Shown here one piece after another: positions 3,140 through 29,550 of a stretch of 32,006 nucleotides of DNA (position 1 is the first letter of the stretch; each line of letters opens with the position of its first letter). The DNA is from Halobacterium salinarum DSM 3754 (lineage in GTDB: Archaea > Halobacteriota > Halobacteria > Halobacteriales > Halobacteriaceae). The notes below the pieces were generated by a model, which was not told the DNA's origin, did not search any database, and saw only the letters and a list, made by a program, of their open reading frames with translations. The translations under genes were made by a program, and so were the position numbers. The DNA is taken from NCBI RefSeq assembly GCF_008124605.1, contig NZ_VRYN01000010.1, forward strand, positions 1 to 32,006, read 5' to 3'.

Positions 3140-4873
3140 ATGAACCATCGAGAGCTCGCCGTGGTCATGGCCGGCTTGCTCGTGACGAGCCTAGTCACGG
3201 GTCTCGTCGCCGCTGACCCGCCGCGACCAGGTACGGAAGGGAATGGACTCTCGGAAAACGAGTCGGCAACGCTGTGGTCACGTGATGCGGACAGCTACAT
3301 CAGCCAGGAGGAGTACCGCCAGCGCTACGGCGAGAACCGTTCCGCTGTCCATCAGGTCGCCAACGGGACGGACGTTACGTTCAAACGGCCGCCCGCGACC
3401 GCGGCGACGTGGACGCGCAACGACTTCGAGAACCTCGACGCCGGCGGGGCAGATACGTCCGTGTATCCGCCGCACGCGGACCTTGAGGACGGGGTCTTCA
3501 TCGAAGACGCCCACGCAACGATTTTCGCGGTCCAGCCCTCTACTCGGGGGCACCTCGAGTCCGGTGAAACCCCACTCTATATCGCGCCGAATGGGACGAT
3601 GCGGGGGTTCGTTGATTACCGCGTTCGCGTGCCCAACGGGAGTTCCTCCGGCAACACGACTATCTCGTGGTCGCTCACGGAGCACGAGACCGAGGAAGTC
3701 CGGTTGAAGAAGGACGGCGAGACCATCGCCGAGCGTGCCGGGTCCCATACGCCTGCCCTCGACTACCAAATCGAGGACGACTGGAGTGCGGATCTCACGC
3801 TGGAGGCGGAGATTCGCGTTCGGCTGAAGAAGACTGTCAGGACCGAGCGTGGTAACCGGACGGACACCGACGTCACCTATCGGACGGAATCACGGAACGT
3901 CTCCGATTCGATCGCCGTCGAGATCTACGACCTCTCGGCGTATCCCTACTATGCGGAGTACCCGGACGGCGACGGCGGTGTGGCCATCTTCCAGTCGCGG
4001 CCGTGGCAGGGATATACGCTCACCGAGGACGGTGAGGCACGAGTCCGTGGCATCTGGCGGTTCTACACGGCTCGGAACACCAACTGGGACACACTCGTTC
4101 GGTCGAACCGGATGGATAGCGCCACCGTCGAGTCAGACGCGATTCCGGTGTACGTCCACGCGTATCCGTCACGCATCGGCCCGCGTGCTGAGCCGGTCCG
4201 GGACGGCCCCGAACTCATCGAGACATGGGGGACTGACCGCCCGTCCCCCGTCGGCACCATCGGCGAGAACATCAACATCGACATCGTCAACCAGTCGTAC
4301 ACGACGACGTACGGCGTCGCCGTTCGGGCGGAGACCATCGACCGCGAAGCGCTCCACGTTGCGGGGATCGTGCGGGGTGTGAACGCCTCGATTGTCGAAC
4401 CGGATGGGGGCTCCGAGCGCCAACTCCGGCGCAGCAACCTCACGGTCAAGGTCCTCGAACAGAATCAGTCACAGGCGACCCTCAGAATCGAGCTACGGGA
4501 CAATCAGACCGACGCCCCAATCACGCTCGACGATAGCCGTCAGTATCCGATTGGCGGAACCACCCGGAACGGGTACATCACCGTCGCAGATCAGCGCGTT
4601 GAGACCAACGAATCAGGCGTTGCAATCGTGACGATCGACGAGCCGGGGATCTACACGGCTCGGTACCATCCGGGTTCGTGGCTTGGCCATAATCCCGCGT
4701 ACGTAAGCGATTCCGCGACGGCACGCTGGCATCCACTTGGGACAATCGACGGCTGGCTTACGCTGGTGTTCGAGGTCGGCTGGCAGCTGCTGCCGTTCTT
4801 CGTGATGTTCTACGCCGGCAAGCGACTCTTGCGGATGCTCGGCCCCGAAGAGATCTTCCAGAAAAACCCATGA
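3140..4873 (+). CDS. Large secreted, C-terminally anchored protein of the transfer operon
   Basis: 577 residues from the ATG at 3140. This start is chosen because it gives a classical signal peptide (MNHRELAVVMAGLLVTSLVTG, with cleavage probably after VAA); an earlier start at 3089 adds a proline-rich stretch that spoils it. The body is acidic, rich in beta-type sequence and has many N-x-S/T sequons, as in haloarchaeal surface glycoproteins. The region at about residues 450-540 reads like an Ig/carboxypeptidase-regulatory-like domain (GYITVADQRV, GVAIVTIDEPGIYTARY). A single membrane helix (LPFFVMFYAGKRLLRML) with a basic stop-transfer lies near the C-terminus. It would sit outside the cell, attached to the membrane, perhaps in mating contact. 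The last four bases overlap the next gene. Function is inferred from position. Confidence 0.75.
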   Translation: MNHRELAVVMAGLLVTSLVTGLVAADPPRPGTEGNGLSENESATLWSRDADSYISQEEYRQRYGENRSAVHQVANGTDVTFKRPPATAATWTRNDFENLDAGGADTSVYPPHADLEDGVFIEDAHATIFAVQPSTRGHLESGETPLYIAPNGTMRGFVDYRVRVPNGSSSGNTTISWSLTEHETEEVRLKKDGETIAERAGSHTPALDYQIEDDWSADLTLEAEIRVRLKKTVRTERGNRTDTDVTYRTESRNVSDSIAVEIYDLSAYPYYAEYPDGDGGVAIFQSRPWQGYTLTEDGEARVRGIWRFYTARNTNWDTLVRSNRMDSATVESDAIPVYVHAYPSRIGPRAEPVRDGPELIETWGTDRPSPVGTIGENINIDIVNQSYTTTYGVAVRAETIDREALHVAGIVRGVNASIVEPDGGSERQLRRSNLTVKVLEQNQSQATLRIELRDNQTDAPITLDDSRQYPIGGTTRNGYITVADQRVETNESGVAIVTIDEPGIYTARYHPGSWLGHNPAYVSDSATARWHPLGTIDGWLTLVFEVGWQLLPFFVMFYAGKRLLRMLGPEEIFQKNP

Positions 4874-5727
4874 CTCGAAACAATCCCCACATCAGTAGAC
4901 GGACCGCCCTCCGAACAGTCGCCGGTACCGCTCTGGCGAGCATGGCCGGTTGTATGGATGACAACGGAAGTGCCGGCCCTAACGGTAGTTCAAGTCCAAA
5001 AGGTGAATCCGGTGTGTTCCGGCAGGTGACTGTCGAAGGAACAGAACTCATAGTCCAGTTCGATTCGGATTCGGAGTTCGACCAGATCAACCTCATCCAA
5101 CCGGACGGCGAACTGCTCGGACAGCGGGAGGTCGCCACAGGTTCCCAACAAGTCTCATTTGATATCGGCACAACGTACGCTCCTGGTGAGTACGAAATAG
5201 TAGCACTCAGCGGTGAGGAAACAGTTGGTGAGAGCTCGCTTTCTGTCCAGCCAAACCTCGGGATCGTCGAGATGGGCATCGGTAGAAACCAGCCCGAAGA
5301 GATGTGGGATGAATCAGAAAGCGAAATCGATGAAGAGGCTTACGTCACACTCGAAAACCAGGGAACTGGGCCCGATGCGGTTACAAAATTGCTCTTCATC
5401 GGTGATGTCCCCTATCCGTCCGACGAAGAGGGAACGAACTATGTCGATGATGAAGACGTAAGCGGGACTTACGACCCGGAATCCGATTCCGAGGTCAAGC
5501 AGATCATAATCGTGCCCGGGGAGCAAATTACGCTCTATAGTTCACGCTCCCCGTTTGCTTTCGTTCCTGGAGCAGGCACGTCCTGCTCGGAGGAGTCGAA
5601 GACTGGTGAGTTTGAACTAATACTCGAGACGCGGGTTAGCAGGGACCGAGTCACCAAAACGTACAGTATCCAGTATTCAGGCGCCCAAGAAACCGATAAC
5701 TGCGAAATTTCCATCAGTGAGACCTAA
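4870..5727 (+). CDS. Tat-exported lipoprotein
   Basis: 285 residues. The N-terminus has a twin-arginine signal (SRRTALRTVAG) followed by a lipobox-like MAGC at residues 25-28, so it is probably exported folded by Tat and lipid-anchored at Cys28, as is common in haloarchaea. A Gly/Ser/Asn-rich linker (about 30-47) leads into a beta-rich acidic domain. Two later cysteines (in the FVPGAGTSCSEES region and the DNCEIS tail) could form a disulphide. It overlaps the previous gene by four bases (ATGA) and lies two bases before the next, so it is translationally coupled to the transfer genes. The lipoprotein would be a surface partner of the conjugation apparatus, by analogy with VirB7-type lipoproteins. 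No homology to those is seen. Confidence 0.75.
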   Translation: MTRNNPHISRRTALRTVAGTALASMAGCMDDNGSAGPNGSSSPKGESGVFRQVTVEGTELIVQFDSDSEFDQINLIQPDGELLGQREVATGSQQVSFDIGTTYAPGEYEIVALSGEETVGESSLSVQPNLGIVEMGIGRNQPEEMWDESESEIDEEAYVTLENQGTGPDAVTKLLFIGDVPYPSDEEGTNYVDDEDVSGTYDPESDSEVKQIIIVPGEQITLYSSRSPFAFVPGAGTSCSEESKTGEFELILETRVSRDRVTKTYSIQYSGAQETDNCEISISET

Positions 5728-25564: not shown

Positions 25565-25890
25565 TGCAGCAGACGCTCGTTGGCTGTGCGTTCTGCGACG
25601 CCCCGCCCGGCGCCGAGGCTGGCGAGGCGCATACGTGGGGCCAGGACGACCGGGTCACCCACCCGATCTGCGTCGACTGCGCGATTCAGACGGAGCCGAA
25701 TCCCGACGAGCGCGATGACTACGCTTGTGACGGCTGTGGGCTGGTCGTCGACACGCTCGCGGCACTGACGCGGTTCCGCGTTGAACTGGGGCATCTGGAA
25801 GGCCCGTTGCAACTGTGTGCTCGCTGTAGCCCTGGTGGGCTCGCGACGTACTGGACGCGTGACCTCACGGAGCATCTCGTGGCCGAGTGA
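25564..25890 (+). CDS. Double zinc-ribbon protein
   Basis: 108 residues with four Cys-x2-Cys pairs: CAFC near residue 8, CVDC near 37, CDGC near 54 and CARC near 85. These can form two treble-clef or ribbon-type zinc sites. The pattern suggests binding to nucleic acid or protein. No catalytic motif is seen. The ATG at 25564 is used since it overlaps the upstream stop. It is the last of a short co-directional set that includes two HEPSGA-motif proteins and the nuclease candidate. Its family is not named here. Confidence 0.65.
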   Translation: MQQTLVGCAFCDAPPGAEAGEAHTWGQDDRVTHPICVDCAIQTEPNPDERDDYACDGCGLVVDTLAALTRFRVELGHLEGPLQLCARCSPGGLATYWTRDLTEHLVAE

Positions 25891-25904
25891 TACTTGTTCG
25901 AACT

Positions 25905-25960
25905 TGGCTCACATCGTACACACGAAAACGGCTAAGTGGGCTGGCTCACATTGTACACAT
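25905..25960 (+). promoter_or_regulatory. Two direct repeats before the antitoxin gene (operator candidate)
   Basis: TGGCTCACATCGTACACAC (25905-25923) and TGGCTCACATTGTACACAT (25942-25960) match at 17 of 19 bases with starts 37 bases apart. The second ends one base before the ATG of the RHH antitoxin. RHH antitoxins usually repress their own operon by binding such repeats. Confidence 0.65.
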
Positions 25961-25961
25961 T

Positions 25962-26264
25962 ATGAGCACCGAGAAGAAGCGCGTGCAGTTTCGGGCCCCC
26001 GATCGGCTCATCGATCGGGCCGACGCACTGGCCGCAGTCCTCGGGGAAGACCGAACAGATGTCCTCGTGACCGCGCTTCGGGAGTACCTCCAAGACGCCG
26101 CTCATGACGACACACTCACCCAGGAGATCGCCGCCGCTTATTATGACGACGAGATCAGCTTCGAGCAGCTCAAAGCCCTCGTCAGCGCCGAAGAAGCGGC
26201 AAACATCCGCGTGTTGAAACAGCAACTGGACGAGGACTTCATCGACGAGGTCGCCGACGCATAG
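25962..26264 (+). CDS. RHH-type antitoxin
   Basis: 100 residues from ATG 25962. The start is fixed by the operator-like repeat ending at 25960; an upstream in-frame extension from 25887 would translate those repeats. The N-terminus has a ribbon strand (KKRVQFRAPDRLIDRADALAAVLG) and then the second helix (RTDVLVTALREYLQD), as in CopG/ribbon-helix-helix regulators. The acidic C-terminus (ISFEQLKALVSAEEAANIRVLKQQL) resembles toxin-binding tails. Its stop is directly followed by the PIN-toxin ATG with no gap. It would neutralise the PIN nuclease and autoregulate the pair. Confidence 0.8.
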   Translation: MSTEKKRVQFRAPDRLIDRADALAAVLGEDRTDVLVTALREYLQDAAHDDTLTQEIAAAYYDDEISFEQLKALVSAEEAANIRVLKQQLDEDFIDEVADA

Positions 26265-26777
26265 ATGTCGCGGTGTATCGCAGACGCCTCCGCCCTCGTG
26301 AGTCTCGGCATCGTTGCTGACAACGACCCCGATCCACTCGCACTCTGTCTCTCCCGGTACAAGGTCGTCGTCCCAACGACGGTCATCGATGAGCTCCGAG
26401 AGATCGCCTCCTACGATGACGTCCATGGACACGCGGCGTCCGCCGTCCTTGACCGGGTGGATGCATTCACGACACAGTCGGTGGACCTCGATGCCGAGTT
26501 TCCGCTCGATGACGGCGAAAACGCGGCAGTCACCCTCGCGAACGATCTCGAGGCTGCGCTCTTCCTCTGTGACGAGTTCAATCAACTTGGCTTGATCCAC
26601 GCCTCACTCGCTGATACCCGACTCGTCACGACACCGACGCTGCTCTCGGTTCTCGTTCGAACTGAACACCTATCTGCTGCTGATGCGCGGGTACTCCTCG
26701 ATGCAATCAGCGACGCCCGTAGCTGGGACGCAAACAGCTACGTGCAACGGGCCCGATCGTTGTTCGAGGAGCCCTGA
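26265..26777 (+). CDS. PIN-domain toxin (VapC-like ribonuclease)
   Basis: 170 residues. Acidic residues of a PIN active site are present: D7 in CIADASALVSL, E43 in VIDELREIA, the acidic cluster DDGENAAVTLA (82-92) and D103 in LFLCDE. PIN toxins cut RNA, often tRNA or rRNA, when their antitoxin is degraded. The gene follows the RHH antitoxin without a gap, so the two form one unit. Length is slightly above typical VapC (about 130-150), with a helical C-terminal extension. Such a pair on a mobile replicon usually promotes retention. Confidence 0.82.
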   Translation: MSRCIADASALVSLGIVADNDPDPLALCLSRYKVVVPTTVIDELREIASYDDVHGHAASAVLDRVDAFTTQSVDLDAEFPLDDGENAAVTLANDLEAALFLCDEFNQLGLIHASLADTRLVTTPTLLSVLVRTEHLSAADARVLLDAISDARSWDANSYVQRARSLFEEP

Positions 26778-26808
26778 CACCGAGAAGGATACTTCGGAGT
26801 GAACAGGA

Positions 26809-27138
26809 ATGCCCGATAACGACGCTCTCTACGACGTTCGTGAGCAAACGGGGGATCCCGAGCACGCATCAGTTGACGACGTGGTCGAACTCGTCCTCGA
26901 ACGCGCACAGCACCCCCGGACGGAGCACCGGGACGCGCATCTCGACGAGATGATGGCGACTGTCGTCGATCGGTACGGGACCGATCCTGTCCGAACCGTT
27001 ATTCAGCGCGTCCTCGTCGACCACTACCCCTTTCGGACTGCCACGCACGACCTCGAGATGCACAACGTCGACGGTGTTCGTATCGGGACAGCAGCCAGCC
27101 AGTTCCTGACAGAATTGAACGCGCAGCATGACGATTGA
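26809..27138 (+). CDS. Hypothetical acidic helical protein
   Basis: 109 residues, helical and acidic, without motifs I recognise (it contains VVELVLERAQHPRTEHRDAHLDEMMATVVDRYG). ATG 26809 follows a weak ribosome-binding sequence (CAGGA). It lies 31 bases after the PIN toxin gene and in the same direction, so it may be transcribed with the toxin-antitoxin pair. Immediately after its stop begins the hairpin-rich stretch, so its message may extend through it. No function is proposed. Confidence 0.6.
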   Translation: MPDNDALYDVREQTGDPEHASVDDVVELVLERAQHPRTEHRDAHLDEMMATVVDRYGTDPVRTVIQRVLVDHYPFRTATHDLEMHNVDGVRIGTAASQFLTELNAQHDD

Positions 27139-27697
27139 AACACAATCTCTGAAAGCCCTCCGCCGCTCGACGTCCCGCGACCGCGCGAGACTACGTCTCG
27201 CTGGCCCTCGTTCGCGTCGCTCACGAGGACGCCGCTGCGCGCCTCGTGCCTGCGGTGCTTGCGGGGTTGGGGGACGTTCACGGCGCGAAGCGCCGTGGGT
27301 TCGGGAGACATCGTCTCCCGGTAACCGAAGCGGTCTCGCCCTTTCCGAGTTCGACAGGACTGTTGATTGCTCATCGGGCGACGTGGTCGGCTGGACAGGT
27401 GTGTACGTATCGGCCCGCCCCGCTCGCCGCTGCCGCCTTCCGGTGAGCTATGCTCACCGGCGTCCCGCTCACTCCGTTCGCGGGACCTCCGCGTCGCTCG
27501 CGACCGACCATTCCGGGCTGCGCCGAGCAAGCTCGGCGTTCCGGGCTAAAGTGCATGTGCCCTCGACGCCAGCGCTTCACCCGTTCGGGTCCTGCGGACC
27601 TCGGCGAAGCCGCCCGCGACGGACGTGGTTGCGTCGCGGCGAACGGGGAATGCGCTGGCCGCTTGCTCCGGGCGGGTCGGCGCGCGGTGCTGGTTGG

Positions 27698-27707
27698 GGA
27701 TCACCTC
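27698..27707 (+). other. Ten-base match to the 16S rRNA 3' tail
   Basis: GGATCACCTC is identical to the conserved 3' end of 16S rRNA (the anti-Shine-Dalgarno region). It lies seven bases before the 19-bp hairpin. Its TCACC can pair with the GGTGA ribosome-binding sequence of the OB-fold gene at 27853-27857. Confidence 0.5.
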
Positions 27708-27713
27708 ATGTAG

Positions 27714-27769
27714 GCGCGCTCTCGCTCGCGCCCGGTAGGGCGCTCGCGAAGGCGCGAGCGAGAGCGCGC
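27714..27769. repeat. 19-bp perfect stem, 18-base loop
   Basis: GCGCGCTCTCGCTCGCGCC (27714-27732) is the exact reverse complement of 27751-27769. The loop (27733-27750) includes a second small complementarity (GCGCTCGCG). It is the strongest hairpin in the window and lies about 95 bases before the OB-fold start. A terminator is unlikely because no T-run follows and a gene begins soon after. Confidence 0.85.
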
Positions 27770-27852
27770 AGATGGTTCTGTCGGTCGTTGTCGTCGGAAA
27801 ACCGCGATGTAGGAGCATCGCGGTGGCGGCGCGTGAGCGCCTTCACAGGTAC

Positions 27853-27857
27853 GGTGA
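27853..27857 (+). promoter_or_regulatory. Ribosome-binding site of the OB-fold gene
   Basis: GGTGA, seven bases before the ATG at 27865, is complementary to the 16S tail. It decides the start: an upstream frame from 27772 would translate the hairpins. The presence of a Shine-Dalgarno-type site agrees with a leadered message. Confidence 0.55.
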
Positions 27858-27864
27858 GTACCCA

Positions 27865-28764
27865 ATGTCTAGTAACAACGCTAGCGGAAAGGTCGTTTCG
27901 GTCGATGAACAGGCATTCGAGAACGCGGGCGAGCAGGCGGCCGATGAAGACGGGTTCCCGGTCGTCGACGAGACGCCGGAGTTCGAGGCGGCGGTCGAAC
28001 AGGAGACCCAGGCGAAGGTGGATGCGAACCACCCGGACGGGATCGCGGACACGAGCGAAGACCGGATTCACGGCGTCACCCTCGAACAGGAGGAGCGCAT
28101 TCGGGCGCGGGAAGCCGAACTGGAGCGCATCAGTGCCCAGGCCGAGCTGGGAACGCAGGACGGTCGGGAGCAGCGCACGCGAGATATTGCAGCGAAGCGG
28201 AGCGCTGTGCGGCGTGCTGAGTTCCAGACACGGGCTGCGAGCGTGGACCCGATGGCCGACCCCGAACGAGATGATCCCCGAGCGGAGCTCACGCAGGAGC
28301 AGTTGGCGGCGGTGAACAAGCAGTCGATGCGGTTGGCTGAAAAGCTGGATGGCTGGTCGCGAGCGGCGATTGGTCGGCGGCTGGGTGAAGCCGTCGTCGG
28401 TGGGAAGGACGTGACGAGTGCGGTCGTCGGCGTGTTCGAGGAGTTGCAGACGGCACCTGGGACGGTGATTCCCATCGGGAAGCTCGAGGACGTCAATCGT
28501 AAAGAAGTGAGCATCGAAGGTACTGTGACCCGGTTGTGGAAACCGTCGAGTGCAGCCATTTCTCAAGTGGGACTCATCGAGGACGAGAGCGGAAAAACGA
28601 AGTTCACCAGCTGGGTTGCGAGCGAACAACCCTGGATTGAGGAGGGCGAGCACGTTCGTATTCACGGAGCGGCGAAGAATTGGTACAACGGACGCGTCTC
28701 GGTGGCTCTGACCGGCTGGAGCACAGTTCACTTCCCCGAGCGCGGCCGCTGGTGGGAAGCATAG
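27865..28764 (+). CDS. OB-fold (RPA-like) single-strand DNA-binding protein
   Basis: 299 residues. The first 190 are acidic and charged, with helical repeats (EERIRAREAELERISAQAEL and ELTQEQLAAVNKQSMRLAEKL), probably interaction or coiled-coil parts. The C-terminal 100 residues form an OB-fold-like domain: EVSIEGTVTRLWKP, AISQVGLIEDESGKTKFTSW, EGEHVRIHGAAKNWYNGR and VALTGWSTV, typical of archaeal RPA/SSB-type domains. It would coat single-stranded DNA made during replication or transfer, alongside the primase genes. The ATG at 27865 has a GGTGA site; the hairpin-rich leader precedes it. A six-T run follows the gene. The function call rests on fold resemblance. Confidence 0.75.
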   Translation: MSSNNASGKVVSVDEQAFENAGEQAADEDGFPVVDETPEFEAAVEQETQAKVDANHPDGIADTSEDRIHGVTLEQEERIRAREAELERISAQAELGTQDGREQRTRDIAAKRSAVRRAEFQTRAASVDPMADPERDDPRAELTQEQLAAVNKQSMRLAEKLDGWSRAAIGRRLGEAVVGGKDVTSAVVGVFEELQTAPGTVIPIGKLEDVNRKEVSIEGTVTRLWKPSSAAISQVGLIEDESGKTKFTSWVASEQPWIEEGEHVRIHGAAKNWYNGRVSVALTGWSTVHFPERGRWWEA

Positions 28765-28781
28765 CCAACTGACGCAACCTC

Positions 28782-28787
28782 TTTTTT
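28782..28787 (+). terminator. Poly-T terminator after the OB-fold gene
   Basis: TTTTTT lies 17 bases after the TAG stop, the usual archaeal transcription stop signal. The GC-rich stretch that follows (28790-28880) has no gene. Confidence 0.6.
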
Positions 28788-28921
28788 GCTGTGGGCCGGG
28801 CCGACCCAGACCCCACCGCCCCACCCTCCGCTCCGTGCTCGCTTCGCTGCGCGCGCAGCCACGACCGTGGTGTATGATGGGGGGTGAGATGGCCTCCTCT
28901 GGGTGACCGATGAGTCGCAAG

Positions 28922-28930
28922 GAGAGTTTA
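28922..28930 (+). promoter_or_regulatory. TATA-like box of the LAGLIDADG gene
   Basis: GAGTTTATC lies about 30 bases before the ATG at 28957, the spacing of a leaderless promoter. Confidence 0.4.
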
Positions 28931-28956
28931 TCCGCGTCACCGATGGGCGCAGCGCG

Positions 28957-29550
28957 ATGTCCAACAGTTCACCCGAGACCCACGATTTCGATGCGTGGTT
29001 CCCTGGCGTCTTCGACGGCGAAGGCTGTATCCGCATCGCAATTGCCGACCGAGAGCGGTACAGCACCGGCTTTGAACTTGCACCAATGCTCCGAATCACC
29101 CACGAACAGTTGACTGGAACCCTTGACGCAGAAGGATGGATTGGCGTGAAAGTAAACCAGAATAGTGAGTATCGAGTCGACCATCGACTTCAGCCGAGGA
29201 TCGAGGTCACCGAGACGTATCGTGATCATTTGATGCAGGCACTTTGTGCGTACTGTGATACTCACGACGTGAACTGCCATGTATCCAGTCTCGAGCCCAA
29301 TGAGGACCGGAGCGATCAGTACATTTGGGGCGTACGAGGCATCAATAATACAAAGACAATCCTGACGCCGCTTCGGGATCAGTTCATCGTCAAGCGCGAG
29401 TAGGTCGACCTCCTCCTCGATGAGATCATTCCACGGATGGAAAGAGGCGTCCGCCACGACAGGGAGGGCTATCGTCGTACTGTCTGGACCCTCTGTATCG
29501 GTCACACCGTTACTGAGGGCTGTTTGAAGAATTCGGCTTTGTTGAAATAA
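28957..29550 (+). pseudogene. LAGLIDADG homing endonuclease-like gene, contracted and with a premature stop
   Basis: From ATG 28957 the product has a first LAGLIDADG-type motif FPGVFDGEG (15-23) and, only about 37 residues on, a second LTGTLDAEG (52-60). Normal spacing is near 90-120, so the first domain seems to have lost its middle. The second half (residues 60-148) looks complete as a single LAGLIDADG domain. A TAG at 29401-29403 ends the frame after FIVKRE, but translation beyond it stays in frame and reads VDLLLDEIIPRMERGVRHDREGYRR, the usual C-terminal helix, so the TAG has probably replaced a Gln codon. The frame then runs into a possible IS-end remnant near 29535. Such enzymes cut intron-less or intein-less alleles. 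This copy is probably inactive. Confidence 0.7.
29535..29548 (+). repeat. IS-end-like sequence GGCTTTGTTGAAAT (left)
   Basis: This 14-mer is inverted with 12 of 14 matches at 31428-31441 (GGCTCTGTTAAAAT on the minus strand). The two face each other across 1.9 kb holding two membrane-protein genes. Similar GGCT-TGTTGAAAT ends occur in haloarchaeal insertion sequences as I recall them, so this may be a remnant terminal repeat. Confidence 0.35.

Follow-up and report, generated by a model that had tools for sequence, protein, structure and literature searches.

Autoregulatory leaders, such as those of ribosomal-protein mRNAs, are structured 5' leaders that carry a hairpin at the ribosome-binding site (RBS) and precede genes whose products bind nucleic acids. 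Large ornate RNAs constitute another group of long structured transcripts, represented by OLE, ROOL, and GOLLD, whose members come from bacteria and phages and have open functions. These RNAs, together with a megaplasmid lncRNA, have been described in previous reports (PMC12286853, PMC5643018). Haloarchaeal mRNAs are mostly leaderless (PMC3986360), and a long leader stands out where most mRNAs lack any leader. In this paper, we analyze a hairpin-rich stretch of a Halobacterium salinarum plasmid and propose, at about even chances and on the basis of sequence comparison, that it represents, in Halobacterium, an undescribed structured RNA of haloarchaea, and that this RNA would serve the following gene as a 5' leader of exceptional length.

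The stretch lies in a window of 32,006 nt (H. salinarum DSM 3754, contig NZ_VRYN01000010.1), which is of the pNRC100 plasmid type; positions 26800–28900 of this window correspond to pNRC100 146033–148133 with 100% identity. Coordinates below are those of the window, and all features of the RNA, its gene, and the 3' domain are on the + strand. The original prediction had placed an array of short hairpins at 27139–27864, and this holds: using a perfect stem of at least 5 bp and a loop of 3–8 nt as criteria, we counted 12 non-overlapping hairpins against 6.4 ± 2.0 in 300 dinucleotide shuffles (maximum 13), and seven stems of at least 7 bp where 0.65 were expected (shuffle maximum 3). The 19-bp hairpin noted at that time is present as well, with arms at 27714–27732 and 27751–27769. 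The hairpins listed previously are thus real in the window; several of the most perfect ones (27185–27201, 27279–27297, 27302–27320, and 27440–27460) are insertions found in the window copy or in a few copies, and they fall outside the conserved core. The suggestion that the region codes for nothing credible agrees with two observations, namely that small indels among close homologues ignore the reading frame (803, 415, and 297 indels with lengths of 1, 2, and 0 modulo 3, respectively) and that open frames barely exceed the length found in shuffled sequences. By these measures, the hairpin region is non-coding.

The conserved structured element begins at 27151, not at 27139 as supposed before, and ends at 27864, the base preceding the ATG. 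Its 5' boundary, GAAAGCCCTC, is sharp; in 51 distinct loci, the information content per position rises there from about 0.3–0.6 bits to about 2. The RNA 27151–27864 has a predicted folding energy of −403 kcal/mol (z = −5.2 against 20 shuffles), and the length of the element in homologues ranges from 527 to 781 nt. A search with the downstream OB-fold protein alone yielded 80 loci in many haloarchaeal genera, in which the upstream region is conserved. When loci found through the protein and loci found through the RNA were combined, the element was present at 148 of the 148 related OB genes examined, always on the same strand and abutting the ATG. Among 391 haloarchaeal genomes from 86 genera, a 206-nt piece of the RNA matches 222, representing 67 genera; some of these matches are weak, and strong ones occur in about half of the 391 genomes. 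The covariance model R1, built on the 3' third of the RNA, gave matches in 38 of the 345 genomes sampled from the phylum; all 38 belong to the order of the window, and the other archaea of the sample gave none. This 3' third is duplicated in tandem at L055 (Natrinema gari), G091:C84:45682-45973. The RNA copies can be 95–97% identical over 190–206 nt next to proteins that are about 65% identical, and several copies may occur on one replicon. No viral contig among those searched encodes the OB protein, and a viral origin of the unit was rejected on that ground.

No family match was obtained when the window stretch and seven divergent homologous loci were compared by cmscan with all 4227 Rfam families; for the same sequences, there was no match to OLE, ROOL, or GOLLD at E values up to 1 and none to the group I and group II intron models. 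Matches to mir-H3 (E 0.11 and 0.66) scored far under the gathering threshold and are due to the 19-bp hairpin alone. As no description of the element was found in the open-access literature either, the statement that no described family has this layout is upheld within Rfam and the literature searched.

The predicted fold is organized around a long-range stem, P1 (27416–27692), in which 27416–27497 pairs with 27661–27692. In 91 homologues, 95–96% of P1 cells are Watson–Crick, compared with 26–52% paired when the strands are slid, and six pairs show double compensatory changes, with seven compensatory events on the tree. Within this stem, helices P2/P3 (27498–27566; 27498–27516 with 27541–27566) include the conserved segment CTAAAGTG and contain fixed as well as polymorphic G-U pairs; P2 shows 25 Watson–Crick-to-GU events and 6 to AC. 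The apical hairpin of P3 (27521–27538 in the window) is variable and is substituted by unrelated hairpins in other loci. Helix P4 (27568–27659; 27568–27575 with 27652–27659) shows 56 double-change cells and closes a hypervariable domain, for which at least four unrelated alleles, each with a complementary stem, are present in alignment A1. The 19-bp hairpin belongs to helix P5 (27714–27769), which has inner hairpins P5a (27728–27733 with 27738–27743) and P5b. It is followed by the small hairpin P6 (27770–27779; AGA/TCT in the window and AGC/GCT elsewhere), in which two of the three pairs are changed on both sides, and by hairpin P8 (27802–27823, CCGCGATG..CATCGCGG), with seven compensatory events on the tree and a GC-to-AT change in nine sequences. 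Hairpin P9 (27828–27841, GGCGC-GUGA-GCGCC) carries a GNRA-type loop in 54 of 91 distinct sequences, the loop being GUGA in 53 of the 91; its 3' strand, GCGCCTTC, is almost invariant, and its 5' strand is either GGCGC or the unrelated GAAGACGC.

Taken over the 91 aligned homologues, the proposed helices are 78–97% Watson–Crick, against 2–76% in the slid control, and most are at least 90% paired when G-U is counted. The original prediction had called for covarying stems to be sought in homologues, and 27 double-sided Watson–Crick swaps were found on the tree, compared with 7 summed over six slid registers. The covariation tool's own control on 34 sequences gave six double-change cells against 0.9 in shuffled data (0 of 500 shuffles), with 97.5% of cells paired against 25–63% when slid. 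Beyond single columns, entire segments are exchanged with pairing retained, as in the P4 domain, the P3 apical hairpin, and P9. An unbiased scan of all columns with a tree-based null had too little power: few columns vary much, and the alleles of the variable domain are not correctly aligned with one another. P4 alone supplied pairs that stood out in it as canonical, and helix-wise tests were used instead. Comparison of the homologues thus demonstrates a conserved element, on one strand, with covarying predicted helices: the long-range P1 around a core and hairpins P5–P9. This class-wide conservation with compensatory stem changes supports the idea of a large structured RNA. Arms changing without compensation, loss of conservation, and a conserved protein read from the region had been named as findings that would speak against it; all three were looked for, and none was encountered.

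The orientation of the element relative to the ORF is constant, and the G-U pairs in P2/P3, together with the GUGA loop of P9, favour an RNA read from the + strand. Wobble asymmetry as such was rejected as a proof of RNA; P2 alone is clearly asymmetric, and the total over all helices is symmetric, with 73 G-U and 79 A-C intermediate events. The main grounds for reading the element as RNA are therefore its position against the start codon and hairpin P10.

Hairpin P10 (27848–27862, GGTAC GGTGA GTACC) abuts the start codon, and its loop, GGTGA, is a partial Shine–Dalgarno (SD) sequence. Of 81 distinct tails, 74 have a P10 stem of 4 bp or longer. The mean stem is 4.70, compared with 2.76 in shuffled sequences and 3.32 when arms are swapped between sequences, and the arms themselves vary (GGTAC/GTACC, GGAACT/AGTTCC, GGATC/GATCC, and GGAATC/GATTCC). 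A conserved structure on the same strand as the gene and directly upstream of it, present at all 148 OB loci and also at loci with another gene (see below), and a covarying pre-ATG hairpin that involves the RBS support the translational control leader that had been suggested. A linker at 27698–27712 resembles the 3' end of 16S rRNA and is a weak candidate for an anti-SD: GGATCACCTC (27698–27707 in the window) is identical to the archaeal 16S rRNA 3' tail, and 68% of homologues have a CCTCC-, ACCT-, or CACC-like sequence there. The complementarity of the linker to its own RBS is borderline (4.71 against 4.50 ± 0.08 when permuted), and SD/anti-SD sequestration by 27698–27707 was not retained. 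For a leader that holds the SD in a hairpin, the sequestration step is weakened by the finding that 5'-UTRs of Haloferax volcanii show no dependence on SD pairing (PMC3986360).

The ORF at 27865–28764 encodes a protein of 299 aa with a disordered acidic N-terminus, a helical middle, and a C-terminal OB fold of the RPA/SSB type (residues 206–288). The OB fold claimed previously is corroborated by homology to haloarchaeal replication factor A and the MM0293 OB domain and by an AlphaFold model in which this fold is confident and the N-terminus is disordered. In at least nine loci (L125, L152, L160, L166, L213, L214, L218, L225, and L226), the RNA precedes a TFB gene and not an OB gene; it abuts the start codon there too, the arrangement before the ATG is the same, and the OB and TFB ORFs share similar first codons (MSSNN..). 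Independently of this replacement, OB genes often have a TFB gene downstream.

Conservation continues past the start of the ORF, so that the unit comprises the ORF as well as a 3' domain ending at 28866. Its order is 5' RNA (527–781 nt), ORF, T-run, and 3' domain, and its size is about 1.5–1.7 kb for most copies. The conserved, terminator-like T-run (28780–28787) lies just past the stop codon and is followed by the conserved 3' domain (28788–28866), which also occurs behind TFB ORFs and ends sharply at GCAGCCACGACC. In 106 distinct copies, conservation at this right border, GCAGCCAC(G/A)ACC, drops from 2 to about 0.2 bits within three bases. The 3' domain also comes in a second class (GGTCACCGCCACCTCCCACCACC...). 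Pairing of the 5' GGGTCGG with the 3' CCGACCC was considered and rejected, as it shows no covariation. The alignments establish that the predicted 5' RNA belongs to a discrete unit of RNA, ORF, T-run, and 3' domain. The replacement of the OB gene by TFB, the 3' domain, the sharp borders, and the reassortment of flanks had been overlooked in the original prediction.

Upstream of the unit, at 25887–27138, lie three small genes, for a ribbon-helix-helix-like protein, a PIN-like protein, and a conserved protein of 109 aa that recurs on many haloarchaeal plasmids with or without the RNA unit. This module, for which no Pfam match was obtained, is probably toxin-antitoxin-like, by resemblance. An ORF similar to LAGLIDADG endonucleases (28903–29403) is found just past the 3' end of the unit on H. 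salinarum plasmids. On a Haloprofundus plasmid (L172), a gene for the peptide chain release factor aRF-1 (4486–5562), in opposite orientation, separates the upstream module from the RNA-OB unit.

If the RNA is a leader, the unit would be transcribed from promoters in the flanking DNA, none being conserved at the unit's own 5' end in the aligned loci. The RNA would then fold, with a hairpin holding the RBS, and the fold would set the translation of the DNA-binding protein. The OB protein itself would most likely bind the RNA as feedback, and TFB copies under the same leader would be co-regulated with the OB gene. This reading is supported by the obligatory linkage to an ORF, the compensatory changes, P10, and the higher conservation of the RNA than of the protein. 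Points against it are the missing conserved promoter at 27151 (no TATA-like signal at −25 of this border in the 51 distinct loci), the mixed orientation of the upstream gene (37 vs 53, a noisy ORF-based estimate), and the overall equality of G-U and A-C intermediates. The conserved 3' domain past the T-run is not obviously needed in a leader.

Two serious rivals to the leader have to be weighed. The first, which we consider unlikely, is a large trans-acting non-coding RNA working, like OLE, ROOL, or GOLLD, as an RNP; the leader would be processed off or read alone, with the OB or TFB protein as its partner and not merely as the regulated product. Its length of 527–781 nt with long near-invariant blocks goes beyond the usual needs of a leader, its conservation exceeds that of the protein, a single RNA is obligatorily linked to a family of nucleic-acid-binding proteins, and a comparable ROOL RNA is found on a megaplasmid of Ligilactobacillus salivarius (PMC5643018, PMC12286853). 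Such RNAs, however, usually also occur apart from their partner gene, whereas no high-scoring intact copy was seen here without an ORF, the ORF-less copies being truncated or degenerate; moreover, the ORF is exchangeable for TFB, and the element continues into the RBS and the first codons.

The second rival, likewise rather improbable, places the function at the level of DNA: a 1.6-kb mobile or recombination element whose structured left and conserved right ends would form folded single-stranded DNA, bound by the SSB-like OB protein, with plasmid modules exchanged there. The unit has sharp borders on both sides and unrelated flanks; pairs of loci from different genera, such as L219/L220, share the unit but no other part of their sequence. 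Among 90 distinct two-ended copies, 31 left and 38 right flank families reassort in many combinations, one left family being joined to 10 right families and one right family to 15 left ones. Multiple copies per replicon, decayed copies (with the ORF decayed, the RNA lost, or the RNA truncated), an OB fold of the SSB/RPA kind, and wobble intermediates without overall strand asymmetry also fit such an element. However, ordinary homologous recombination at any repeated 1.6-kb gene gives reassortment as well, and the covarying RBS hairpin calls for an RNA explanation. Transposition found no support: the common-repeat length (3.19, with 3.11 expected by chance) gives no sign of target duplication, no clean empty site appeared in the searches made, where joined-flank probes gave occupied, degenerate, or one-sided sites, and the unit contains no transposase, HUH enzyme, or integrase, its ORFs being OB-fold or TFB only. 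The proposal of a replication or transfer origin was abandoned, since annotated neighbours within 4 kb on the plasmids viewed include no replication initiator (Orc1/Cdc6, RepH), relaxase, or oriT, and since there are several copies per replicon. On the simplest reading, the unit is functional, occurs in several copies per cell, and is used as a joint by homologous recombination; autonomous mobility of the unit is possible.

Plasmids of different genera repeatedly carry two units in the same orientation at a distance of 8.6–10.6 kb (L036/L043 contig NZ_BMOQ01000011.1, G147:C3, G380:C11, and G269:C42), which is what an exchange of modules between copies of the unit would produce; in Halorubrum, paired units enclose genes for lactate use. 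Three loci (L045, L076, and L080), from Halobacterium sp. KA-4, Halorussus marinus, and Halorubrum salsamenti, are 96–98% identical over 6.9 kb, which, judging from this near-identity, is recent transfer between genera.

An intron-like ribozyme, with the ORF in a loop between the 5' and 3' domains, is very improbable. The RNA-ORF-RNA layout, the sharp ends, and the exchangeable ORF would suit it, but no Rfam intron model matches, the ORF is not a reverse transcriptase, maturase, or homing endonuclease, the tested pairing between the two domains lacks covariation, the element is located between genes, and the unit ends are unlike those of group I or group II introns. Ordinary GC-rich intergenic sequence with chance hairpins, of which 6.4 are expected in GC-rich haloarchaeal DNA, has a negligible probability, being contradicted by class-wide conservation, compensatory changes, and sharp borders.

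A bolder and tentative possibility is an undescribed class-wide archaeal RNP or mobile unit, in which an exchangeable ORF, coding for either an SSB-like OB protein or TFB as the DNA-binding product, would sit between an ornate RNA of 550–750 nt and the 3' domain. Such a unit would influence the transcription or recombination of plasmids and would be the joint where their modules are shuffled. The haloarchaeal element would be an archaeal counterpart of the large ornate RNAs; it is present in H. salinarum NRC-1 and about half of haloarchaeal species and has a defined protein partner, which makes it genetically testable. The unit is linked to the construction and expression of haloarchaeal plasmids in two respects: its ORF can give way to one for a basal transcription factor, and plasmid modules are shuffled across it.

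Among the known systems, OLE RNA with OapA/OapC in extremophilic Firmicutes is similar in being an ornate RNA of about 600 nt, in extremophiles, beside the gene of a partner protein; unlike the haloarchaeal element, it is restricted to bacteria, its partners are a membrane protein or a kink-turn binder and not an OB-fold protein or TFB, and only the haloarchaeal RNA extends into the RBS. ROOL and GOLLD, including the L. salivarius megaplasmid lncRNA, share a length of 500–800 nt, a highly structured nature, an association with mobile replicons, and an open function, yet they occur in a phage or tRNA-island context with no obligatory downstream gene, whereas the haloarchaeal element is always accompanied by one ORF. 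Group I and group II introns with internal ORFs resemble the unit in having conserved RNA that flanks an ORF and sharp ends; the unit differs in its intergenic position and in carrying neither intron motifs nor a reverse transcriptase or endonuclease ORF. On the protein side, the C-terminal OB fold is homologous to that of haloarchaeal RPA (PRK07217; E 5e-16 in NCBIfam), and the best Foldseek match of the window protein is an archaeal SSB, the MM0293 OB domain (2KEN), while the acidic disordered N-terminus and the helical middle are not shared. With autoregulatory leaders, the haloarchaeal element shares a structured 5' leader, an RBS hairpin, and a downstream gene for a nucleic-acid-binding protein; in contrast to them, it is several times longer and class-wide, its ORF is exchangeable, and it is accompanied by a conserved 3' domain.
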